The position numbers and the translations under genes were made by a program. This document shows positions 10,045-30,528 of a stretch of DNA of 31,149 nucleotides, piece after piece (the first letter of the stretch is position 1; every line of letters starts with the position of its first letter). The DNA comes from a virus. Location: positions 1 to 31,149 of the IMG/VR virus record IMGVR_UViG_3300032177_000050. One strand, 5' to 3'. The notes under the pieces were generated by a model, which saw only the letters and a program-made list of their open reading frames with translations, did not search any database and was not told where the DNA came from.

Positions 10045-10070
10045 TTCTGTTCCATCTCCTTCGCTTTTAT

Positions 10071-10222
10071 GGGGATAGGTAAACCTACCCCGCTCTAAAG
10101 GAATTGAAAGATATTAAAGATCAGGACATTTCGTCATTGCTGATGACTGGCCGCATCCTGATCCTCGATAAATCCGTGACTCGATTGGAGGCGGTTCCCC
10201 TCAACCGGCTTCGCCACGGATT
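10071..10222 (-). other. Three strong hairpins between capsid and next gene
   Basis: The 187-nt gap after the capsid stop holds three stems. AATCCGTG/CACGGATT (10171-10178 with 10215-10222) encloses a CGGTT/AACCG stem. GATCAGGA/TCCTGATC (10119-10126 with 10156-10163) encloses GTCAT/ATGAC. A 9-bp GGGG(A)TAGGT/ACCTACCCC stem lies at 10071-10091. No long U-run follows any stem, so mRNA protection or attenuation is as likely as termination. Confidence 0.55.
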
Positions 10223-10231
10223 GCATGTTAA

Positions 10232-15569: not shown

Positions 15570-15812
15570 TTATTTTTCCGGTACTTGAACAAATAAACTT
15601 AATCGTCCATGTGTCACTAATGCACCACTAATCATTTTAAGTACCCGTAGACCAGTATCACCATCAAGACCATCCTCGCACGATATAGAGTCTATCAGTG
15701 CCCCTTCCGCAATCTCCAAGAGGTCTAACAATTCACTCACGTCCGATGGATAGCCCACCGTCCAAGTAGGTTTCTGTAACCCCTCGATGATTTTTTCTGT
15801 TGTCTCTTTCAT
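15570..15812 (-). CDS. 80-residue protein beginning MKETTEKII
   Basis: Starts at ATG 15812 after CAGAGGGATT. It begins MKETTEKIIEGLQKPTW and continues with acidic helices (ELLDLLEIAEGALIDSISCE). The first eight residues, the ribosome site and about 60 nt of upstream DNA are a near copy of those of the next gene up (16056), yet the bodies differ. A promoter-like TTGATT-N18-GATAAT lies within that copied segment. Function unknown. Confidence 0.7.
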   Translation of the reverse strand: MKETTEKIIEGLQKPTWTVGYPSDVSELLDLLEIAEGALIDSISCEDGLDGDTGLRVLKMISGALVTHGRLSLFVQVPEK

Positions 15813-15870
15813 AATCCCTCTGCCGTAGTTTTGCATTATCAGGGCAAAATGGTTTGTTAATCAATGGTTA
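15787..15870 (-). repeat. Duplicated promoter/start module, copy A
   Basis: Covers the promoter, ribosome site and first codons of the 80-residue gene. It matches 16031-16116 with only a few substitutions and a 2-base length difference, while the flanking sequence and the proteins' bodies are unrelated. It looks like a recombination module that supplies expression signals to different small genes. Confidence 0.8.
15835..15864 (-). promoter_or_regulatory. Sigma-70-like promoter TTGATT-N18-GATAAT
   Basis: In the minus sense TTGATT (15864-15859) and GATAAT (15840-15835) are separated by 18 nt. The predicted start would be about 16 nt ahead of the ATG at 15812. The identical arrangement occurs at 16081-16110. 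Confidence 0.6.
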
Positions 15871-16056
15871 GAATGCACTTTCCCCATTACATTCATGGCA
15901 AATTAACATCCCATCTCCATGTATACAATATCCCAATCCGTGGCACATATCATCAGGGCAAACTACTATTTCTCCTGTGCCTCCGCACCGATTACAAGTA
16001 TAGGGGTAATGTTCATCCTCACCCAAGTCAATGATTCTTTCTGTTGACTCTTTCAT
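15868..16056 (-). CDS. DnaJ-type zinc finger mini-protein
   Basis: 62 residues from ATG 16056 (GGAGGGATT upstream). It begins MKESTERIIDLGEDEHY and carries four Cys pairs: CNRCGGTGE, CPDDMCHGLGYC and CHECNGES. This repeats the CxxCxGxG style of DnaJ zinc fingers, common in small phage proteins. Its first codons are a near copy of those of the 80-residue gene downstream. The biological role is unknown; metal binding is very likely. Confidence 0.75.
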   Translation of the reverse strand: MKESTERIIDLGEDEHYPYTCNRCGGTGEIVVCPDDMCHGLGYCIHGDGMLICHECNGESAF

Positions 16057-16116
16057 AATCCCTCCGCTACTTAGTTTTGCATTATCAGGGCAAAATGGCT
16101 TGTTAATCAATGGTTA
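16031..16116 (-). repeat. Duplicated promoter/start module, copy B
   Basis: Second copy of the segment at 15787-15870, carrying the promoter, ribosome site and first codons of the 62-residue zinc-finger gene. Differences are scattered single bases plus two extra bases near the ribosome site. The spacing between copies is about 245 bp. Confidence 0.8.
16081..16110 (-). promoter_or_regulatory. Sigma-70-like promoter TTGATT-N18-GATAAT (second copy)
   Basis: TTGATT (16110-16105) and GATAAT (16086-16081) in the minus sense, 18 nt apart, upstream of the ATG at 16056. Its presence in both repeat copies suggests these two genes are transcribed independently of the surrounding operon. Confidence 0.6.
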
Positions 16117-16123
16117 TGTGGAA

Positions 16124-16399
16124 TTAATGACATTGACACAATCCACCATTGTAATAATAGGGGCCGTTCATTCCTGGCTGATCTACTGGATTATAGTGTT
16201 CTCCTGGAATCCCATACCAACCTTCCCCGTTGCCACAACAATCACAAACGGTTACATCATGTTCTGTATTATTATCGATCCACTTCAACACAGCATTACA
16301 GAAGTCAGGAGCTTTTTGAATCTCCTCCATATTTAATTCTGGAATTTGATGCAGGTTTAAAAAACCTGTGCTTTCACAACGGGTACAAGATAAAGACAT
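16124..16399 (-). CDS. Cys-rich phage protein (DnaJ-like CxxC pairs)
   Basis: 91 residues from ATG 16399, with GGAGG five bases upstream. It opens MSLSCTRCESTGFLNLHQIP and ends with CDCCGNGEGWYGIPGEHYN and GLCQCH. This type of Cys-rich protein, with VLKWIDNNTEHDV in the middle, recurs in many phages without known function. Its start lies 11 nt after an attC-like site, so it could be the gene next to the end of the cassette array. No further attC-like site follows its stop. Confidence 0.75.
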   Translation of the reverse strand: MSLSCTRCESTGFLNLHQIPELNMEEIQKAPDFCNAVLKWIDNNTEHDVTVCDCCGNGEGWYGIPGEHYNPVDQPGMNGPYYYNGGLCQCH

Positions 16400-16409
16400 A
16401 AGAACCTCC

Positions 16410-16465
16410 ACATAACCAATCACTCCAGCGGACGTGCGACACGCCGCTGAGTTCAGTCGTTATCT
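16410..16465. repeat. attC-like recombination site (a)
   Basis: 56 bp in the plus sense: ACATAAC at the left end and GTTATCT at the right end. Between them a central imperfect palindrome reads CAGCGG-A-CGTG, CGA, CACG-CCGCTG (16426-16449), with one bulged A. The left half (TAACCAATCACTCCAGCGG) and right half resemble integron attC arms. The stop TAA of the 76-residue gene overlaps the right box. Confidence 0.7.
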
Positions 16466-16690
16466 GAAATTATAAACCTTCATTGGACATCGCTCTGGTG
16501 TCAACGGTTCCCATAAATGCCATTGAGCGCCTTCGTCGGACATATAATCTACGCTTAAAAGAATCGAGGCATTGAGGGCTTTACAATGAATATGGGCCTT
16601 CTCCTTCGTTTTACTATTGCCAGCGAAAACGTATTGTTTGTGTTTACAAGTGCCGCCGTATTCCCCGATATTTTCACAATCACGAATCAT
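16460..16690 (-). CDS. Cassette gene, 76-residue protein of unknown function
   Basis: Starts MIRDCENIGEYGGTCKHKQ at ATG 16690 and ends TPERCPMKVYNFR. Several cysteines and histidines (HIHCKALNAS) could bind metal, but no family is recognised. The gene lies wholly between attC-like sites b and a: its ATG is 9 nt from site b and its stop is inside the end box of site a. This is the compact layout of an integron gene cassette. The frame stays open upstream to a GTG at 16738 inside site b; the ATG is preferred although its ribosome site is weak. Confidence 0.7.
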   Translation of the reverse strand: MIRDCENIGEYGGTCKHKQYVFAGNSKTKEKAHIHCKALNASILLSVDYMSDEGAQWHLWEPLTPERCPMKVYNFR

Positions 16691-16698
16691 AAAACCCC

Positions 16699-16756
16699 AG
16701 ATAACCAGCGGGTGCAGTGGATGGCCAAAAGCCACCACTGACCCTTGTCGTTATAC
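16699..16756. repeat. attC-like recombination site (b)
   Basis: 58 bp with AGATAAC at the left and GTTATAC at the right. The centre is CAGTGG-A-TGGC, CAAAA, GCCA-CCACTG. Its arms differ in sequence from sites a, c and e (CAGTGG instead of CAGCGG) but keep the pairing and the bulged A, so base changes are compensated. A further 7-bp hairpin (CGCTTAA/TTAAGCG, 16757-16775) abuts the right end. Confidence 0.65.
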
Positions 16757-16830
16757 CGCTTAACGCCATTAAGCGAAACCATTTATAAAACCTTGGAAAC
16801 GGGTCGGGTGGGGAAAACATAATTTATACT

Positions 16831-17583
16831 CTATTCAAACATAACGGTTTGATCAGGATTGAAAGGTTTTTTGGTATCATGTAACCACCATTCAAACATT
16901 TCTGATCCGTTCTTCCATCTTTTAAAGGCGGGCCTTCCCCCTCTATTCTCGAACAGTTTAATAAAGGCTCGTCTAAAAGCTTCTTTCATCCGAGGCCATC
17001 TATCCCCTTCTCTTACTTGGTGTGAGGACATGGGACACATAACGCAACCAATCCGCTTAAATCCTTCATCATACAAAGAACAATAAGAAATTTTACTTTC
17101 TTTGATGAAATCCCAAACGTCATTATCTGACCAATCTAAAATGGGATTAACATAGGTTCGGGTTGAATTTCGGTAGCATTGTTCCACAAACTTGCGGCCT
17201 GCCCGTTTGGTTGATTCTGCCGCTCTGATACCAGTCAAAACCCTTCTACCAACTCCACCATTTTCCTTAAAAACTTGGCAACACCATCGATTTTGTCTGG
17301 TTGGAAATCCCCGTATTGGTAAAACGGAAAGAAATGGCCTTTCTGGTCTTTCCCACTTTGTATCGGAGTGATGTTTCAGTAAAAACCGGATCAATTCAGG
17401 GGGATCAATGGTTGTAACATTGTAATGAGCGTCATATTTTACGCCAGACATAATCAGTAATTCCCTAACAACGGATGAATCTTTACCTCCACTGTCTGCA
17501 AACCAGTAACCTTCCGGGGGGCAAAATATCCTTATTCTTTCTAAAGAATCTTCTACTTTACAATGTCCAAATAGGTCTTTCAT
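16831..17583 (-). CDS. PAPS reductase-family (PP-loop) protein, cassette-borne
   Basis: 250 residues. The N-type PP-loop is FADSGGKDSSVV at about 28-39. Later conserved blocks are RWCCQVFKENGG, GIRAAESTKRAG, NPILDWSDNDVWDFI and FKRIGCVMCPMSS. Family members reduce phosphoadenosine phosphosulfate or activate sulfur; phage homologues are common but mostly untested. The paired cysteines (WCC and CVMC) could hold an iron-sulfur cluster as in DndC-like proteins. ATG 17583 has AAAGGAC upstream. Flanked by attC-like sites b and c, so probably carried as a cassette, with 74 nt between its stop and site b. Confidence 0.85.
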   Translation of the reverse strand: MKDLFGHCKVEDSLERIRIFCPPEGYWFADSGGKDSSVVRELLIMSGVKYDAHYNVTTIDPPELIRFLLKHHSDTKWERPERPFLSVLPIRGFPTRQNRWCCQVFKENGGVGRRVLTGIRAAESTKRAGRKFVEQCYRNSTRTYVNPILDWSDNDVWDFIKESKISYCSLYDEGFKRIGCVMCPMSSHQVREGDRWPRMKEAFRRAFIKLFENRGGRPAFKRWKNGSEMFEWWLHDTKKPFNPDQTVMFE

Positions 17584-17633
17584 TTGTCCTTTTAGGTTCC
17601 CTTCCGGCCCGTTAAGGTTGCTTTATGGCTACG

Positions 17634-17689
17634 GTATAACCCCCCACTCCAGCGGACGCTTAATGCGCCGCTGGGTTCAGTCGTTATGA
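17634..17689. repeat. attC-like recombination site (c)
   Basis: 56 bp from GTATAAC to GTTATGA. The central palindrome CAGCGG-A-CGC, TTAAT, GCG-CCGCTG is identical to that of site e 1.1 kb away, although the spacer bases beside the end boxes differ. The methyltransferase stop codon TAA lies in the right box. Confidence 0.75.
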
Positions 17690-18445
17690 CGCAAAATCCA
17701 ATACGCCTTGCGCCAACCTCTTCACTGCTATTTCGCAATACTTTTCTGATATTTCAATGCCAACTGCTCTTCTTCCTTCTTCTCTCGCAGCAACAAGGCT
17801 TGTTCCAGTGCCACAGAACGGATCAAGAATTATAACATCCTTTTGGCTCCATCCTTCAATCGCTCTTCTGGCCAGGCTTTTTGGAAATGTTGCACCGTGC
17901 CCTTTTAGGTTTTCTCCGCGCTTCATTCTCCAAATGTCTGTCATTTCTCCACGTTTAAAAAAGGCGTTCTTAAATGCTCGTCCTGCTGACGCTTCTTTTT
18001 CAAATACTAAAATAAATTCAGCCGCTTTATTTATTACCTTTTCGTGCATTGCAGGTTGTCCATGCCCTTTGTCCCAAACAATTACGTCTTTTATCTCATT
18101 AGCAAACTTACCGATGATTTTAAAAATTGCCTCTTTGCTTCCGGTTACAATCTGTATATTCCAAAAAACAAGACCGGAAATTCTAATCATTTCATGAAGA
18201 GTGCTTAGGTGAAATTTAAAGTAGTCATCAATAGACAAATCATCTCCAAAGTGGTCATATTTTTTACTAAAATGTTCGCTTTTTTCTCTGGTTGTGTATT
18301 CTCCATTCCTTATTCTAGTTCGCATATTATATGGTGGTGAAGTAACGGTCAGACCGCATAAATCATCTGGTAATTGCGGCATTATTTCCATACAATCACC
18401 GTGATAAATCGTTATTCCATTTTCTTCGTAGTAAGGTTTAATCAT
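17684..18445 (-). CDS. DNA methyltransferase (beta class, TSPPY), cassette-borne
   Basis: 253 residues. Motif IV is TSPPYNMR near residues 34-41 and motif I is LDPFCGTGTSLVAAREEG near 212-229. The order IV then I marks a beta-class amino-methyltransferase (N6-adenine or N4-cytosine). DIWRM and the C-terminal RAVGIEISEKYCEIA are also typical. It probably protects phage DNA from host restriction, though no cognate nuclease is visible. Target sequence cannot be read from the protein. The gene lies between attC-like sites c and d: the ATG is 25 nt from site d and the stop is in the end box of site c. Confidence 0.9.
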   Translation of the reverse strand: MIKPYYEENGITIYHGDCMEIMPQLPDDLCGLTVTSPPYNMRTRIRNGEYTTREKSEHFSKKYDHFGDDLSIDDYFKFHLSTLHEMIRISGLVFWNIQIVTGSKEAIFKIIGKFANEIKDVIVWDKGHGQPAMHEKVINKAAEFILVFEKEASAGRAFKNAFFKRGEMTDIWRMKRGENLKGHGATFPKSLARRAIEGWSQKDVIILDPFCGTGTSLVAAREEGRRAVGIEISEKYCEIAVKRLAQGVLDFAS

Positions 18446-18469
18446 ATTTACTTTTTCCGTTATAAAAAG

Positions 18470-18524
18470 TCATAACCAATCAATCCAGCCGATCGCTACG
18501 CTCCGGCTGATTTCTGCGTTATGT
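18470..18524. repeat. attC-like recombination site (d)
   Basis: 55 bp from TCATAAC to GTTATGT. The arms CAGCCG and CGGCTG pair around a 12-nt centre (ATCGCTACGCTC) that can form a smaller stem. The spacer AATCAATC next to the left box matches the AATCACT of sites a and e. The methyltransferase gene starts 25 nt to its left and the 53-residue gene ends at its right edge. Confidence 0.7.
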
Positions 18525-18686
18525 TTATTTAATAGATTTCAGGTCAATCCTGATGATTGTGCCTGCCCAGTACATTTGGGCTTCACAGTTACACAAAGAT
18601 GCTTCTGCCTTATTGATGGTACGACTTGAAATAATAGGCCAAACTGTTTCGATCCATGCAGCTAAATCAATGGGTAGTTCAAACAT
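18525..18686 (-). CDS. Cassette gene, 53-residue protein
   Basis: Begins MFELPIDLAAWIETVWPIIS and ends WAGTIIRIDLKSIK. The ATG at 18686 has an excellent AAGGAGGT site 4 bases away. The stop abuts attC-like site d and the start is 27 nt from site e, so it is a complete, compact cassette. The protein is amphipathic with a CNC pair in the middle. I do not recognise it; a toxin-antitoxin component is one possibility for such small cassette genes but nothing visible proves it. Confidence 0.75.
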   Translation of the reverse strand: MFELPIDLAAWIETVWPIISSRTINKAEASLCNCEAQMYWAGTIIRIDLKSIK

Positions 18687-18713
18687 AGATACCTCCTTAA
18701 TGAATAATTTTCA

Positions 18714-18768
18714 ACATAACCAATCACTCCAGCGGACGCTTAATGCGCCGCTGACCTTTGCGTTATAT
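18714..18768. repeat. attC-like recombination site (e)
   Basis: 55 bp from ACATAAC to GTTATAT with the centre CAGCGG-A-CGC, TTAAT, GCG-CCGCTG. It is the first site of the array in the transcription direction. Upstream of it a second box-like GGCGTTATTTG (around 18788) coincides with the stop of the 91-residue gene. Confidence 0.75.
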
Positions 18769-18790
18769 TCTCGCCGCCTCACCCTTGGCG

Positions 18791-19066
18791 TTATTTGACA
18801 TGAAAAATATAATGACCCCCTCGCCTCGATTCTTGCCAACATAGTATCCAAAACATCCAATTCCTTTCCAATGCCCCCATAATGTCTTCGTTACCGCTCC
18901 ATCCTCCGGTTGAAATATTATATATCTTGTCCTTCTGGACCCAGTAACCGCAGTCGGCATATTCCCAGATGCCATGAATAAAATCCATCAGGCCAGAGCA
19001 GTCTTTTGCGGACCATTTCTCAATTTTTTTAAGTTCTTCTTTTGTAGGATCTCTATTCATAGACAT
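18791..19066 (-). CDS. 91-residue conserved-type phage protein
   Basis: Aromatic-rich, with WSAKDCSGLMDFIHGIWEYA, GYWVQKDKIYNISTGGWSGN and CWQESRRGGHYIFHV. The mixture of Trp/Gly motifs resembles a small phage protein found widely and annotated as hypothetical. It overlaps the end of the peptidase gene by 10 nt; an ATG two codons in is an alternative start. Its stop TAA forms part of a TAACGCC sequence 22 nt ahead of attC-like site e, so it may be the first gene outside the array or a cassette with a degraded site. Confidence 0.7.
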   Translation of the reverse strand: MSMNRDPTKEELKKIEKWSAKDCSGLMDFIHGIWEYADCGYWVQKDKIYNISTGGWSGNEDIMGALERNWMFWILCWQESRRGGHYIFHVK

Positions 19067-19830
19067 AACTCGATAAACTTCCCGATCAATGCCATCGAAG
19101 CCTTCACTCTTTCGTTAAGTTTAAACTTACCAGGTGTCTCAGTCACGGCTACACGGACAGTTCCCTCGGTGAATAACCAATGTTCCAAACTTCCATCTTC
19201 TAATTTATATACAATACCATTGTTTACCATAACCCCGTGTCCGCCGAGAGCATCTACCGTTACCAACTCATTATCTAAGGGGTCGGTGAAAAATCCAGCC
19301 AACGTATTCCGCATTTCATTTGTAAAACGACCCGGAGCATCTGTTCTTTCAAAAGTGTAAACATAATATTTCGATGAGGTAATATCCTCATGTAACGATA
19401 AAAATCCATCGCGGGAACATGCTTTTAGTAGGGGTAGGTTTTTAAGAAGTATGATACCCTCTTCTGACGGTTTATCTCCCGAAGCCTTGGTGTTATAAAA
19501 ACCGCAATTTGACTTCTCGTTTTTTAAATTGTATCTTCGACCCAATTGATACGCCACCGGATTAATAATAGGGATGAAAGAAAGATTAAACGAATAAAAT
19601 AGTTGTGGATCAAATTCCTCCAGCCATTTTATAATAGATAGCGGGCCAGCTATCTCTTCACCATGCATACCAGCCACCATTAATAATCGGGGAGATTTTG
19701 CTCTATATCCATGCTGATTTGATAGAAACCATATTGGATAATTCCCCACTTCCCCCAACACCCGTAACCAAAGTTTCTTGTTGGATGCTACCGTAAAGAG
19801 TCGTTTATAGAAAATATTAACGGATTTCAT
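19057..19830 (-). CDS. M14-family zinc carboxypeptidase-like (succinylglutamate desuccinylase/aspartoacylase type)
   Basis: 257 residues. Zinc ligands are visible: H56 and E59 in AGMHGEEIAG, and H147 in LSLHEDI. INPVAYQLGRRYN (about 90-101) resembles the substrate-binding N-P...R block, and VTETPGKF places the catalytic Glu at 231. The chain is short, as in the aspartoacylase branch. In phages such an enzyme could trim peptidoglycan peptides or amidated metabolites; the substrate is unknown. No signal peptide. The ATG at 19830 is 22 nt after a structured RNA element; AAGGA is its ribosome site. Confidence 0.85.
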   Translation of the reverse strand: MKSVNIFYKRLFTVASNKKLWLRVLGEVGNYPIWFLSNQHGYRAKSPRLLMVAGMHGEEIAGPLSIIKWLEEFDPQLFYSFNLSFIPIINPVAYQLGRRYNLKNEKSNCGFYNTKASGDKPSEEGIILLKNLPLLKACSRDGFLSLHEDITSSKYYVYTFERTDAPGRFTNEMRNTLAGFFTDPLDNELVTVDALGGHGVMVNNGIVYKLEDGSLEHWLFTEGTVRVAVTETPGKFKLNERVKASMALIGKFIELCL

Positions 19831-19852
19831 CTTATTTAAATCCTTGAATTAT

Positions 19853-20028
19853 GAGCAGGTGGCCGGAGGGTCCCATCAACTAATCGGCCAATGTCCAGGT
19901 TCGCTTACTTGCCATTCGGATAGTATTCCTTTTGGACGCATCGAATACCCTCGATGCATTGGCCTTTTTCCCTCCGCTCCCTCGGTTCTCCGAAAACCCC
20001 CCGCTCTCCTAAGAGAGACCACCCGCCC
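19853..20028 (-). ncRNA. Candidate structured RNA, multi-branched with a perfect three-way junction
   Basis: About 176 nt in the minus sense. A 10-bp closing stem pairs 20028-20019 with 19862-19853. Inside are hairpin CTCTC/GAGAG (20017-20004), hairpin GGTTTT/AGAACC (19998-19984) and a 7-bp stem CGGAGGG/CCCTCCG (19976-19970 with 19870-19864). That stem leads to a three-way junction with no unpaired junction bases: GGCCAAT/ATTGGCC (19964-19958, 19892-19886), GCATCGA/TCGATGC (19957-19938) and GTCCA/TGGAC (19937-19933, 19897-19893). Three G-U pairs form only on this strand, which argues that the minus strand is the RNA. It forms the leader of the M14 gene. It matches no RNA class I know; a riboswitch-like leader or independent ncRNA are both possible. 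Confidence 0.6.
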
Positions 20029-20033
20029 CTGTC

Positions 20034-20210
20034 CTACAGGGTGTGATACTTTCTACACTTCCGACAATGGAATAAGTCGTCTTTTATTTGGTTTCCAAAT
20101 TTCTTAATCGAAGCCCCGCAATAAGGACATTTGGCATCAAATTTCTTTACCCAATAAACTCTTATTTCTTTTATCTCTTTAGGACCGAGATGCCCGGTTA
20201 TCCTTGTCAT
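20034..20210 (-). CDS. 58-residue zinc-ribbon protein
   Basis: MTRITGHLGPKEIKEIRVYW is followed by a Cys4 ribbon: CPYCGASIKKFG and CRKCRKYHTL at the end. The ATG overlaps the previous stop as ATGA. It resembles the many small phage zinc ribbons thought to bind nucleic acid or protein partners. Its stop codon lies in a 5-bp hairpin (CCTGT/ACAGG) at the edge of the structured RNA region. Confidence 0.75.
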   Translation of the reverse strand: MTRITGHLGPKEIKEIRVYWVKKFDAKCPYCGASIKKFGNQIKDDLFHCRKCRKYHTL

Positions 20211-20380
20211 TTCCGTTCAACCAAAATCCTTAAATCGAAAATAACCTTATCTCCAACCTGTAAGGGGAAATCTTCTAAAAGAAGGGTGGACATCACCGCA
20301 GGTTCAGCCACCACTTCCTTCGCAGACCTCCAATCCGGTACATCCATCGTTTTAACTTTTCTAAACTTTTCAATTCTCAT
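20207..20380 (-). CDS. 57-residue protein of unknown function
   Basis: MRIEKFRKVKTMDVPDWRSA, then LLLEDFPLQVGDKVIFDLRI, ending LVERK. The second half looks like a small beta-barrel segment. It is coupled on both sides by ATGA overlaps, which supports reality despite the size. No family is recognised. Confidence 0.7.
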   Translation of the reverse strand: MRIEKFRKVKTMDVPDWRSAKEVVAEPAVMSTLLLEDFPLQVGDKVIFDLRILVERK

Positions 20381-20667
20381 TTTGGCCTCAACATCTCAAC
20401 CGTGTCTTGTAATATTCGCTCGGCACGAATCCTCATCCTGAGACATTCATTCCACCATACGCAGGCAGAAGTATAAATATCGACATTAAAGACCGACAGT
20501 TGGCTTTCTGGTATAAAATATTCGTTTCCATTGCCATCATCGACTATGTGACACAAAAATGCTTCACGGTCCGGTATTGCCTCGCTCTCCCGAACTACTC
20601 CGTTGAACGGGGTCCACTGAAATCCCATTACCTTCGTACCTACTTGAAATTTAGGAATCGTTGTCAT
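20377..20667 (-). CDS. 96-residue protein, likely small beta-barrel with helix
   Basis: Residues 1-60 (FQVGTKVMGFQWTPFNGVV, CHIVDDGNGNEYFIPESQL) look like an SH3-type or PIWI-associated-type small barrel, followed by a helix (CVWWNECLRMRIRAERILQD). The start ATG has AGGCGG upstream. Function is unknown. The gene is the first of a coupled three-gene run ending at 20034. Confidence 0.7.
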   Translation of the reverse strand: MTTIPKFQVGTKVMGFQWTPFNGVVRESEAIPDREAFLCHIVDDGNGNEYFIPESQLSVFNVDIYTSACVWWNECLRMRIRAERILQDTVEMLRPK

Positions 20668-20692
20668 TACCGCCTATTCCCCCGGTATTTTC

Positions 20693-20918
20693 TTAATTCG
20701 AACTTGCTTTTTTTTGAAATTCCAGACGAGTTATGTCTGACGGGGCTAAATTACCCTTATGAATAGTCACCATAACATCACCACCAAAGGCATATTCGGC
20801 ACGTAGAAATTTACCCTCTGCCTTTACCAAATCAAAAACATGCCAAGTAATCAGGTCTTCAAGCAGAGACTTGGTGATATCACTTTCGTTTTTTATCGTG
20901 ATGGGAAATTTTTTGCAT
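20693..20918 (-). pseudogene. Small gene broken by one base in an A6 run after its start
   Basis: An ATG overlaps the upstream stop as TAATG, but the sixth A in the run (20909-20914) puts a stop after 12 codons. Dropping one A gives a 74-residue protein with no further defect: MQKFPITIKNESDITKSLLE, then DLITWHVFDLVKAEGKF, then EYAFGGDVMVTIHKGNLAP. Without the shift the main frame has no start after the TAA at 20918. Either an assembly or replication indel, or slippage on the homopolymer, would explain it. The protein family is not recognised. Confidence 0.7.
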
Positions 20919-21760
20919 TAGACCACTACCTTGCGTACATTAATTATCAGTCGGTCACGGACTTCCACGACAATATAGCCCAATTCGACAGGATCATATT
21001 CATACTTTTCTGAATAACTGGTAACGTTTTCTCCGAAGGTCTTTAAGAATGAACCAGTGTTGCAGTACCAGCGATGGTCGGGATGGATATACCCCGTTGT
21101 CCTGAAGTGGGTGTATTTTTCCTTAATGCCTTCCCCTGGTTCGGTCGTAAGGTATAATTGCGATCTCGGATCAGACACAATCAGACGATGGGTATGCGCC
21201 TTGGCCATCAAGAGGGCATCCCCGAATTTGTACTTCAAGTGCTGTTTTAATTGAAGTTGCAGATTGGCTAAATTTCTAATAGGGTCATCTGCAACCGACC
21301 GAATCAACTTTCTTCCATGGGTGAAGTAACCCTTGAATTGTAAGCCATTTTTATCATTAAGTTTCACCACACACGACCAGCCACCATAGGGAATATGAAG
21401 TTTATCCTCGCAAGTATTCTTAGTAATATCACCAATCATCGGATATAGTTTATCGGTATGATTGCCGCGAAGAATGGTGATAAGCCGTTTAGCCTTAGCC
21501 AACGGAGCAAGATCCTTAACCACCGTTTTTTGTTGTGAAAGAGGGTCTGTTTGTAAGATGGCGGGATCGTATCGTGGATCGCTGATCCAAAATGCCTCCA
21601 TCTCATCTCCCATGTGGAGAGCGAAACGGTTCTTGGCATCCAATATATACTGGATGGCCTGCTGATATCCTTTTTTGTACGATAGGATATTGCCCTCCTG
21701 ATTGTCTCCGAAAAGAATCAACTCATAATTAGCTGGTACGGCAAAATCGAGAATATCCAT
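20918..21760 (-). CDS. Calcineurin-like metallophosphoesterase
   Basis: 280 residues. Metal-binding blocks appear in order: LFGDNQEGN (D19), LHMGDEMEAF (D52), LRGNHTDKL (N100, H101), FTHGRK and AKAHTHR. These are the D-GD-GNH-GH-type signatures of metallophosphoesterases, with GNHT in place of GNH[DE]. Phage members may act on nucleic-acid ends or cyclic nucleotides; the substrate is not known. The start overlaps the end of the Arg-rich zinc protein by 32 nt. Its stop overlaps the ATG of the broken small gene. Confidence 0.88.
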   Translation of the reverse strand: MDILDFAVPANYELILFGDNQEGNILSYKKGYQQAIQYILDAKNRFALHMGDEMEAFWISDPRYDPAILQTDPLSQQKTVVKDLAPLAKAKRLITILRGNHTDKLYPMIGDITKNTCEDKLHIPYGGWSCVVKLNDKNGLQFKGYFTHGRKLIRSVADDPIRNLANLQLQLKQHLKYKFGDALLMAKAHTHRLIVSDPRSQLYLTTEPGEGIKEKYTHFRTTGYIHPDHRWYCNTGSFLKTFGENVTSYSEKYEYDPVELGYIVVEVRDRLIINVRKVVV

Positions 21761-22372: not shown

Positions 22373-22385
22373 CTAACTACCTCCC

Positions 22386-22553
22386 TTAATCTACTTTTAG
22401 GCACATGAGTCTTTTTAATCCTACGTTCAGTTTATGCCAGACATTGACTTTGGGTACGGGTTCGATAATTCTCTTCTCCTTAATCTTTTTGTATCGTTTT
22501 ATGGAACGAGAATGAATCCGTTTGATCTTACCGCCCACGTATTTGATCGCCAT
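22386..22553 (-). CDS. 55-residue very basic small protein
   Basis: MAIKYVGGKIKRIHSRSIKR followed by YKKIKEKRIIEPVPKVNVWH and ending RLMCLKVD. About a third of the residues are Lys or Arg. GGGAG lies seven bases ahead of the ATG. It fills the 194-nt gap after the terminase and is in the same direction with small gaps on both sides. Nucleic-acid or terminase binding is a guess from charge only. Confidence 0.65.
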   Translation of the reverse strand: MAIKYVGGKIKRIHSRSIKRYKKIKEKRIIEPVPKVNVWHKLNVGLKRLMCLKVD

Positions 22554-22565
22554 ACCGATTCTCCC

Positions 22566-28108: not shown

Positions 28109-28354
28109 CTATGTCTCTCCCCGGGGACCACCGGAAGTATAAATTTCTTTACCTCCGACTCCTTGAGGTTTAGGATTCACAGTATAACAGACCGGGTCCT
28201 GGATCAATGCTATCCTAATCAGATCAAAAAGATACCACTTCCACCAAACCCTCATCTGACCATTATTGTCTGGCGCATCAACGGATACTCTTTTGCTTAT
28301 CAGGGCAAACCGTCTGTCTTTTATCCAAAAGAATAATCGTTTAGTTCTTGACAT
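28109..28354 (-). CDS. 81-residue protein of unknown function
   Basis: MSRTKRLFFWIKDRRFALIS followed by GQMRVWWKWYLFDLIRIAL and a Gly-rich end (GGKEIYTSGGPRGET). The aromatic central part is not long enough for a membrane helix with certainty. GGAAAGGATAGAAG precedes the ATG. The start overlaps the HD gene's end. Confidence 0.6.
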   Translation of the reverse strand: MSRTKRLFFWIKDRRFALISKRVSVDAPDNNGQMRVWWKWYLFDLIRIALIQDPVCYTVNPKPQGVGGKEIYTSGGPRGET

Positions 28355-29660
28355 CTTCTATCCTTTCCCCGAATAATTCGTTAAACCGTTTCAAAAAGGC
28401 TTTCTCCGCCCGCCTATATCCCAGTGGTGTTATTGTGATATTAAGGGGTTTCAAATCTACACCGTAGTTGAGGGTACGGTCAGTAATGAAATTTTCACGT
28501 TCGGTAATAAGGGCTAAAAAATCGGCACGTTTAACATGATCGTAAATCACATCTACCATCGGCCATTCAAGACCGAATTTCTTCGATATTACCTGCATAT
28601 ACTTATCTTCCAGTTTCTTATACGGTATACCCAAAAAGACTTTAAGGGGGGCAGGAATGTCCAGCAGGTATGCTTCGGCTGCATCGTGTAACAATCCCTC
28701 TTTAGCCCACATGGGATTAACAATCTTCGACACCATAACACAATGTTCTGCCACACTGTTATGAGACCCGAACCCTTCAGTCAGATATGTATGTGTAGAC
28801 GTTTCTATCGCAACCACAGACCCTACGCCAGCATCCCTTGCGTCTATCACCGGAAGAAGCGCGCCCTGCCTCGACACATCCGTCCCGACCATTTTATTTT
28901 GCATTCGACCGATAAGCCGATAGGGGCGAATGGAACCGAGAAGAGCTAATTGTTTTCCAAACCCTCCGCGCACAGTGAAGCGTTTGCATCTGTAACTTCC
29001 CTGATAAGAACATTGAACATCTACATAACGCGATTTAAATGCCCGAACCAGCAAGTCAAAAAGCACCCCTTCGTTTTGAGAAATCCCCAGAGATCGTCCT
29101 CGACTATTTTTACTCGATATGCACCCTTCCCCATCAAACATCCCTGCAAGCCATCCAGCTTCCCAGGTTCCGTCAGTTGCCCACACCGGAAGAAGTTTCG
29201 GCAAATACGTTGTTTGCCCTTTTGAAAATCGTTCAAAAATTTTCCAAGCGACTTCCCAACGTTGATTTCCAGACGCCTTAAAAGAACAAAGCAATGGATG
29301 TTCTCTTGAACAACGGACACTTGTGCCATCCCCAAATGTTAATTCAATAAGACGACGCTTAATCAATCCGTGTACAGAAGCTATCGAAGGTCTCCACTTC
29401 CGCAAACGTCTATGACCCCCGTTCGCCTCGTCGAACCCCCACAGTATGTCTCCAGACGCGATTGACCCCGCAGGAACCCAACGGTAATCATAAGTAAGAA
29501 TTTTCGTTTCAGGGGTCACACAGTAGAATGGTTCAGTCCTTCCGCCAAACCTACACTGTCTCGCCAGATGGTGCGCAATATCACGAATATCAATATCATC
29601 CACCTGCGGATGAAGGAGTTTATAAACCTTGCCAGTATAGGTATGGTCTAAGATTATCAT
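28341..29660 (-). CDS. HD-domain phosphohydrolase (YfbR-like 5'-nucleotidase type) interrupted by an intein
   Basis: 439 residues from ATG 29660 (an in-frame ATG at 29678 is also possible); 184 after splicing. Extein N: MIILDHTYTGKVYKLL, then DIRDIAHHLARQCRFGG ending EPFY. Extein C: SVAEHCVMVSKIV, LLHDAAEAYLLDIPAP with HD at 325-326, and RADFLALITE with a conserved Asp. Metal ligands therefore lie on both sides of the intein (HH near 30-31, H306, H325-D326). Phage enzymes of this type may dephosphorylate dNMPs to alter pools. The intein sits between Tyr46 and Ser302, next to the catalytic centre. Confidence 0.88.
   Translation of the reverse strand: MIILDHTYTGKVYKLLHPQVDDIDIRDIAHHLARQCRFGGRTEPFYCVTPETKILTYDYRWVPAGSIASGDILWGFDEANGGHRRLRKWRPSIASVHGLIKRRLIELTFGDGTSVRCSREHPLLCSFKASGNQRWEVAWKIFERFSKGQTTYLPKLLPVWATDGTWEAGWLAGMFDGEGCISSKNSRGRSLGISQNEGVLFDLLVRAFKSRYVDVQCSYQGSYRCKRFTVRGGFGKQLALLGSIRPYRLIGRMQNKMVGTDVSRQGALLPVIDARDAGVGSVVAIETSTHTYLTEGFGSHNSVAEHCVMVSKIVNPMWAKEGLLHDAAEAYLLDIPAPLKVFLGIPYKKLEDKYMQVISKKFGLEWPMVDVIYDHVKRADFLALITERENFITDRTLNYGVDLKPLNITITPLGYRRAEKAFLKRFNELFGERIEDVKN
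28758..29522 (-). mobile_element. Intein with LAGLIDADG homing endonuclease in the HD hydrolase
   Basis: 255 residues from Cys (29520-29522) to Asn (28758-28760). Block A is CVTPETKILTYDYRWVPAGS. Block B is VRCSREHPLLC (SxxH in place of the usual TxxH). The endonuclease motif WLAGMFDGEG is followed later by a second weaker one in LALLGSIRP. The C-terminal block is VVAIETSTHTYLTEGFGSHN followed by Ser+1 of the extein. All residues needed for standard splicing (Cys1, His-Asn, Ser+1) are present, so the element looks active. Confidence 0.9.
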
Positions 29661-29661
29661 T

Positions 29662-30528
29662 TCACCGCAATCCCGCATTACACTCTAAATGTTTTCTAAA
29701 CAACACCCCGGTCTTTTTACCAATGGACTTCCTTGTTTCCTTCGAATCCACGATTTCCCCACTGCCTTCCCTTACCACGTCCGCTATCATTTCCTTGATA
29801 ATATCACCCATCATCTCTATCCCGGGTTCTAACTCTGGGGAAAACCGTTGTAGCACATGGGCAAGGCGCATTTCAGTCACCCACTCATCGGCTATCGCTT
29901 CGGCATCCGACAATACTTTAAGTTTAGCAGGGTCAAGCTCCCTCGAGGTTTTTGTTTCCTTAAATTCTTCACGCTTATGTTTGGCAATAATGCGTTCTCC
30001 ATTGTTCTTTGTGAGTTCGATCAATGGTCTTAAAACAATTCCTTCCCGTATATGGGTATCCCCCATCCCGTTTTTTTGAGCCTGAATTGAAACTGCATCA
30101 CGGTGGGCGTTTAATGTTTTGATATCGGTTGGAACTTGGGCGTAATGGACAAAATCAAATCCTAATCCTCTGGCGACTTGCTCCGCATTGGGGACATTTA
30201 ACCATATATCTCCAATCTTGACTTCGAAGGCTATAAACTTTAGTTCCTTACCGTAGACCTTACTCATGCCTTGGCATTTACCACCATATGCCTCCCCATA
30301 AACAGTTACTACCGGATACCCAAGAACTTCAAACTTCGAAGGTAGTCCCCATGCATCAAAGAGTAGAACAAAGTTGGCATGGTCTACTCCACCGGCGAAG
30401 AAGTGAACTTGACCGTCTTTCCAAAAAACTTTTGCGGATGTGCCATGAATTTTCTCCATGGCGTAACATTCCTTAAACAAAAGAATGTCATGATTTTTAT
30501 ACAAATTGTCAATATTGAGATAACTCAT
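29662..30528 (-). CDS. RNA ligase (Rnl2-like nucleotidyltransferase)
   Basis: 288 residues. The adenylated lysine is K26 in MEKIHGTSAKVFW (motif I, KxHG). Motif III-like VVTVYGEAYGG, motif IIIa-like KFIAFEVK, motif IV IREGIVLRPL and motif V RIIAKHKREEF follow in the right order. Phage ligases of this family seal nicked RNA, often repairing host tRNA cleaved by anti-phage nucleases. No polynucleotide kinase is visible nearby. ATG overlaps the preceding stop as ATGA with GGTGGG upstream. Confidence 0.88.
   Translation of the reverse strand: MSYLNIDNLYKNHDILLFKECYAMEKIHGTSAKVFWKDGQVHFFAGGVDHANFVLLFDAWGLPSKFEVLGYPVVTVYGEAYGGKCQGMSKVYGKELKFIAFEVKIGDIWLNVPNAEQVARGLGFDFVHYAQVPTDIKTLNAHRDAVSIQAQKNGMGDTHIREGIVLRPLIELTKNNGERIIAKHKREEFKETKTSRELDPAKLKVLSDAEAIADEWVTEMRLAHVLQRFSPELEPGIEMMGDIIKEMIADVVREGSGEIVDSKETRKSIGKKTGVLFRKHLECNAGLR

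Follow-up and report, generated by a model that had tools for sequence, protein, structure and literature searches.

A structured 176-nt element in the intergenic gap ahead of a phage M14 peptidase gene

The viral record IMGVR_UViG_3300032177_000050 (positions 1 to 31,149; these 31,149 nucleotides are referred to as the window) contains an intergenic gap ahead of an M14-type peptidase gene, for which a first-pass annotation had proposed a novel structured RNA, acting either as a leader of that gene or as a free RNA. Does the gap indeed contain a structured element, from which strand would it be made, and what could it do for the genes around it? The following features of the locus are relevant to these questions:

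19057..19830, minus strand: M14 / AstE-AspA type zinc carboxypeptidase gene, next downstream of the element (PF24827, E 3.4e-8)
19853..20028, minus strand: structured non-coding element, 176 nt (z against shuffles and rank among the folds of the window)
20034..20210, minus strand: zinc-ribbon-like ORF of 58 aa carrying two CxxC pairs, immediately before the gap (PF06044, E 3.2e-4, below cut-off)
20207..20380, minus strand: 57-aa ORF with homologues beside M14 in other phages (tblastn and global alignment)

Folding strength and coding potential of the gap

The stop of the 58-aa ORF at 20034 and the start of the M14 gene at 19830 leave an intergenic gap of 203 nt, exactly as annotated. The accompanying statement that genes otherwise overlap in this genome did not hold, as the ORF list contains gaps of similar size at 10045-10231 (187 nt), 20668-20917 (250 nt), and 22373-22565 (193 nt).

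The structure at 19853-20028 is real in the sense that none of 1000 dinucleotide shuffles folds as well, whichever strand is taken. For the exact 176 nt, the minus strand reached -73.3 kcal/mol, compared to -58.0 +/- 4.1 kcal/mol for the shuffled sequences (z -3.75), and the plus strand -64.6 compared to -45.6 +/- 4.0 kcal/mol (z -4.74). Folding of the 206 nt at 19840-20045 against shuffled sequence, a check proposed along with the annotation, gave z -3.47 for the minus strand, where 1 of 200 shuffles folded as well, and z -4.45 for the plus strand, where none of 200 did, and the structure stands. Among 312 folds covering both strands of the whole window in steps of 200, those of the element ranked first (plus) and second (minus), the next best values being -4.05 and -3.97; in this comparison the element was folded at its own coordinates with 100 shuffles and all other segments on a fixed grid with 20. 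No other stretch of 176 nt in the window is as rich in G+C as the element (56.8%, a value reached by 0 of 3098 sliding windows). Of the three other gaps, 10045-10231 folds better than the element (z -4.94, 0 of 200 shuffles as good), and folding of 20668-20917 and 22373-22565 was not significant (z -0.93 and 0.36, respectively). The well-folding gap lies behind the major capsid gene and shows three strong hairpins on the minus strand, the middle one being followed by UUUAAUAUCUUU, so that this hairpin may be a terminator. It is unchanged in three near-identical contigs and not recognisable by eye in a more distant one (L014, see below).

The gap looks non-coding, its frames on the minus strand being short or closed. 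The longest of them, a GTG frame of 48 aa at 19876-20022, scores like off-frame sequence (-0.21; the 2.5th percentile for 170 in-frame segments is -0.19), and an 87-aa frame on the plus strand has no Pfam match; a coding gap was therefore rejected. Rfam 15 gave no match at gathering scores in the whole window and, at E<=10 over 19700-20200, three chance-level matches only, the best with 17.4 bits compared to a gathering score of 80. These results agree with the earlier remark that the element matches no nameable RNA class, and a structured, non-coding element without Rfam match is supported. No intrinsic-terminator-like sites were detected on either strand of 18700-21000 in a scan limited to simple hairpins, and a scan of the minus strand of the same region for promoters of the sigma-70 type, other promoter types being outside its scope, found none.

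Several other candidates were rejected. CsrA/Rsm sponge RNAs are characterised by an excess of GGA motifs; the element contains eight, with 5.3 expected, and this number is reached by 12% of mononucleotide shuffles. HDV-like or hammerhead ribozymes, looked for by eye and in Rfam, gave no match. Inspection by eye revealed neither attC-like AAC...GTT boxes at the ends of the element, as for an attC/attI site, nor a target duplication, as for a transposon with terminal repeats.

Predicted fold and strand

On the minus strand, the following parts were predicted:

20018..20028, minus strand: P1 5' arm, GGGCGGGTGGT, pairing with 19853-19863 (probabilities 0.88-1.0, three G-U)
20004..20017, minus strand: P2 hairpin CTCTC-TTAG-GAGAG, 5 pairs (0.75-0.83)
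19995..20003, minus strand: P4' 5' arm, CGGGGGGTT, dominant partner of 19864-19872 (0.67-0.84)
19981..19994, minus strand: P3 hairpin (minimum-energy fold)
19970..19976, minus strand: alternative P4 5' arm, CGGAGGG (0.10-0.13; forced fold -72.2 compared to -73.3 kcal/mol)
19958..19964, minus strand: P5 5' arm, GGCCAAT (0.84-0.99 with 19886-19892)
19938..19957, minus strand: P6 hairpin, GCATCGAG..TTCGATGC (0.78-0.98)
19893..19937, minus strand: P7 hairpin with internal loops (closing pairs 0.88-0.97)
19886..19892, minus strand: P5 3' arm, ATTGGCC, partner of 19958-19964
19864..19872, minus strand: 3' arm common to P4' and the alternative P4 (pairing analysis)
19853..19863, minus strand: P1 3' arm, partner of 20018-20028

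The closing helix, first described with 10 bp, was recovered as P1 with 11 pairs (20028-20018 with 19863-19853), and the three-way junction was confirmed as P5/P6/P7, with no unpaired junction bases and junction pairs of 0.84-0.98. The 7-bp helix of the earlier description is firm if P5 was meant; if CGGAGGG/CCCTCCG was meant, it is predicted at about 0.13 only and is beaten by P4' (CGGGGGGTT, about 0.8), the two helices contesting one partner arm and lying 1.1 kcal/mol apart. By our own reading, the P6 loop GGUAU could in addition pair with AUACU in P7. The start codon of the M14 gene is predicted to be open and outside the element, and its GGAUUU ribosome-site stretch is predicted to pair with AAAUCC in the first codons, giving a small hairpin of 6 bp that would form independently of the element.

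Transcription of the minus strand had been proposed from three G-U pairs. These pairs were found in P1 and exist on the minus strand only, being A-C on the plus strand, but folding by itself gives no preference for the minus strand, because the z value is better on the plus strand. That all three wobbles fall on the minus strand has a chance of 1 in 8 by our own arithmetic, and the main neighbouring genes are encoded on this strand as well. Wobbles and gene direction thus lend weak support to the minus strand, which we consider more likely than the plus strand, and the gap probably corresponds to a structured segment within a messenger RNA.

Relatives, gene order and a nearby cassette array

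Apart from the window, the element was detected only in two near-identical contigs, 3300031707_000126 and 3300031772_000224, with a shared stretch 99.9% identical to the window. There is no difference within the element, the nearest one being located at 20047, and at 0.1% divergence this constancy in three contigs is uninformative. Searches for DNA similarity yielded one 25-nt chance match each in phages and plasmids, and none in E. coli. Exact patterns in viral_contigs hit, beyond the two near-identical contigs, four stretches for each of two 16-mers and none for a 21-mer. None of these eight stretches matches R1, a covariance model made from two identical sequences, by which distant forms could be missed. 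Applied to 59 of 66 loci (the remainder, L001-L006 and L012, being the window itself or DNA near-identical to it), R1 recovered L007, itself a near-identical copy, and one match at E 9. In 19 whole viral records it found two near-identical ones only, in 43 genomes with similar attC sites none (one locus per genome by record titles, 9 of 52 loci being dropped as duplicates), and in two phyla, represented by 395 genomes each, 0 and 1 matches, respectively. This single match, locus L085 (19.7 bits, E 0.9 for its genome, several pairs broken), was taken as chance. In a simulation, the three exact patterns kept 38% of homologues at 0.10 changes per site and 8% at 0.20. Since such patterns miss the majority of homologues once divergence exceeds about 10% per site, the absence of relatives is weak evidence, and searches with a single sequence show rarity among close relatives rather than absence in nature. 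Relatives of the phage itself are few: besides the near-identical contigs, the capsid protein led to one contig at 55% identity (L014) and the terminase to one at 26% (L008).

The M14 gene provided a wider comparison. A distant search revealed 14 viral loci, including two that are near-identical to the window; in the 12 others (29-61% identity), of which about 10 are independent as the pairs L070/L071 and L075/L076 each appear to represent a single phage, the element was never found before M14. HGEE, HED and TETPG stretches of M14 are invariant in an alignment of three sequences. In two of the loci, L069 (61%) and L078 (42%), the gene directly before M14 resembles the 57-aa ORF of the window, and in a third, L072, a homologue is located just after M14 (tblastn E 4e-5 for L072, 0.002 for L078, and 0.058 for L069; global-alignment z 7.4 for L078 and 3.9 for L069). 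The suggestion that the element is a leader belonging to M14 was not borne out by this arrangement and by its absence from 12 of 12 distant loci. The M14 frame of L069 overlaps the frame before it, whereas more than 200 nt separate the two in the window; in a huge phage with an M14 relative, M14 again overlaps the preceding gene. For the 58-aa ORF, only near-identical copies were detected in viral_contigs. In the window, this ORF and the 203-nt gap stand between the 57-aa ORF and M14, and they look inserted because the 57-aa homologue stands directly before M14 in L069 and L078. The simplest reading would be an insertion of the gap, perhaps with the 58-aa ORF, as suggested by two phages with remote homologues, one at E 0.058.

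Another relative of M14 is encoded on a Klebsiella plasmid (L010, NZ_CP082806.1) beside genes for ThrRS, dihydroorotase, hemB, folE2, and carbonate dehydratase, which we take to be a set of duplicates for zinc starvation (Zur). A connection of the phage enzyme with zinc supply is possible.

An array of cassettes is located 1.1 kb from the element (about 15870-18766), with five attC-like sites at 16411-16463, 16701-16754, 17635-17687, 18471-18522, and 18715-18766 and cassettes comprising PAPS-reductase-like, N6_N4_Mtase, and small ORFs. In near-identical contigs (L001/L011, L002, L013), different or reordered cassettes are present at 15870-~18716, and in part the same genes are joined to different attC-like sites. 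Since the flanks are 99.7-99.9% identical, these differences point to active cassette exchange in a phage without integrase in the window, in which no tyrosine recombinase was found. In bacterial genomes, the attC-type pattern was detected in 52 stretches. Of the 53 sites examined there, 44 have the longest preceding ORF on their own strand, three have it on the opposite strand, and six have none. In the phage array (16411-18766), genes are mainly on the opposite strand, contrary to the usual attC polarity. Cassette clusters without integrase, including methyltransferase cassettes, and sites in divergent directions have already been published for phages (PMC9892861); the portions of that paper considered here make no mention of cassettes being shuffled inside a single phage population. 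A direct repeat of ~45 + 40 nt (15784-15870 and 16028-16116) spans small-ORF starts at the constant edge of the array, which breaks at ...TCAATGGTTA. Further away, in a 445-aa frame at 28341-29678 (minus strand), two parts matching phage deoxyribonucleoside monophosphate phosphatase or phosphohydrolase profiles flank a stretch that matches an HNH endonuclease profile and has the appearance of an intein.

Possible roles of the element

Our preferred reading, with a probability of roughly 0.38 and largely inferred, is that the operon mRNA of the minus strand carries the element as a structured spacer acting in cis, which would set M14 apart from the upstream genes. The gap, perhaps with the 58-aa ORF, would have come between the 57-aa ORF and M14, and the element would now punctuate the operon. 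Its compact P1-P4'-P5 stack could block ribosomes reading through or exonucleases, or it could be cut by a double-strand-specific nuclease. As a result, M14 and the next gene (18791-19066) would form one unit of expression that is decoupled from the preceding genes. Fold significance, P1 wobbles together with gene direction, the lack of a terminator-like site, the open M14 start, absence from the 12 distant loci, the order in L069 and L078, a second structured gap, and the non-coding frames were counted in favour of a cis-acting spacer, and the better z value of the plus strand against it. The structured gap behind the capsid gene would fit a general habit of structured operon joints.

Known RNAs offer partial parallels. 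The RNase III processing sites of T7 are structured intercistronic mRNA elements of a phage operon. Like these, the element lies on the coding strand between two genes of an operon, with compact helices and no terminator; unlike these, which consist of one long hairpin, it is a branched structure of 176 nt with a three-way junction, known here from its predicted fold. The pRNA of phi29 (RF00044), with about 174 nt and a three-way junction, is similar in size and also phage-borne, but the element does not match its Rfam model, and the phage described here has a GpA-type terminase, which differs from the motor ATPase of phi29-type packaging. Retron msr-msd RNAs resemble the element in that a closing inverted repeat encloses small hairpins and a longer one. 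A reverse transcriptase gene is lacking in the window; RVT_1 was detected in 0 of 1 window record, which may be a fragment, and in 3 of 14 controls.

Among the alternatives, a free phage RNA acting in trans, which would be released from the operon mRNA or have its own transcription inside the operon, is unlikely, although the element is compact, closed end to end by P1, and apparently without coding role: neither a minus-strand promoter of the type searched for nor a terminator-like site was found, and the searches revealed no relative elsewhere. Foreign or decayed DNA of high G+C content that folds without function is an equally doubtful explanation. The base composition, the lack of relatives, and the apparent insertion would agree with it, but shuffles of equal composition never folded as well in 1000 trials; the unchanged sequence in three contigs does not bear on it at such low divergence.

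Somewhat less likely still is an element of the plus strand, either an antisense RNA or a structure terminating antisense transcription. The z value is better on this strand (-4.74 compared to -3.75), and by our own reading a T run (TTTTT, 19965-19969) follows the P5 three-way-junction stem, a branched arrangement outside the simple-hairpin terminator scan. Against it, the main neighbouring genes are on the minus strand, P1 contains three A-C mismatches on the plus strand, and the scan, within its limits, found no terminator.

For a leader of M14 sensing a ligand or state by switching between P4' and P4, the chances appear small. Two mutually exclusive helices are available to 19864-19870 within 1.1 kcal/mol, the P6 loop could contact P7, and a position upstream of a gene with competing helices is shared with riboswitches and leader RNAs in Rfam. 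Unlike these, the element has no Rfam match, involves the M14 ribosome site in neither fold, and is not kept with M14 elsewhere, and G-rich runs easily give such register alternatives. Slighter again is the chance of a phage RNA device of an undescribed class, in which a P4'/P4 toggle on the shared arm and a P6-P7 loop-loop lock would have been inserted between formerly adjacent genes for separate control of M14. A DNA-level site for packaging, replication, or recombination using inverted repeats, possibly linked to the cassette array, is very improbable: the element folds well on both strands and attC sites such as those nearby also act as folded single strands, with bottom-strand recombination (PMC9892861), but it has no attC-like boxes at its ends, no tyrosine recombinase is found in the window, and the contigs holding it do not differ at the element.

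The element is at present a well-founded candidate without relatives and by itself opens no general question. If it is a working RNA, it would represent an orphan structured element added to phage operons, appearing between genes that are adjacent in other phages.
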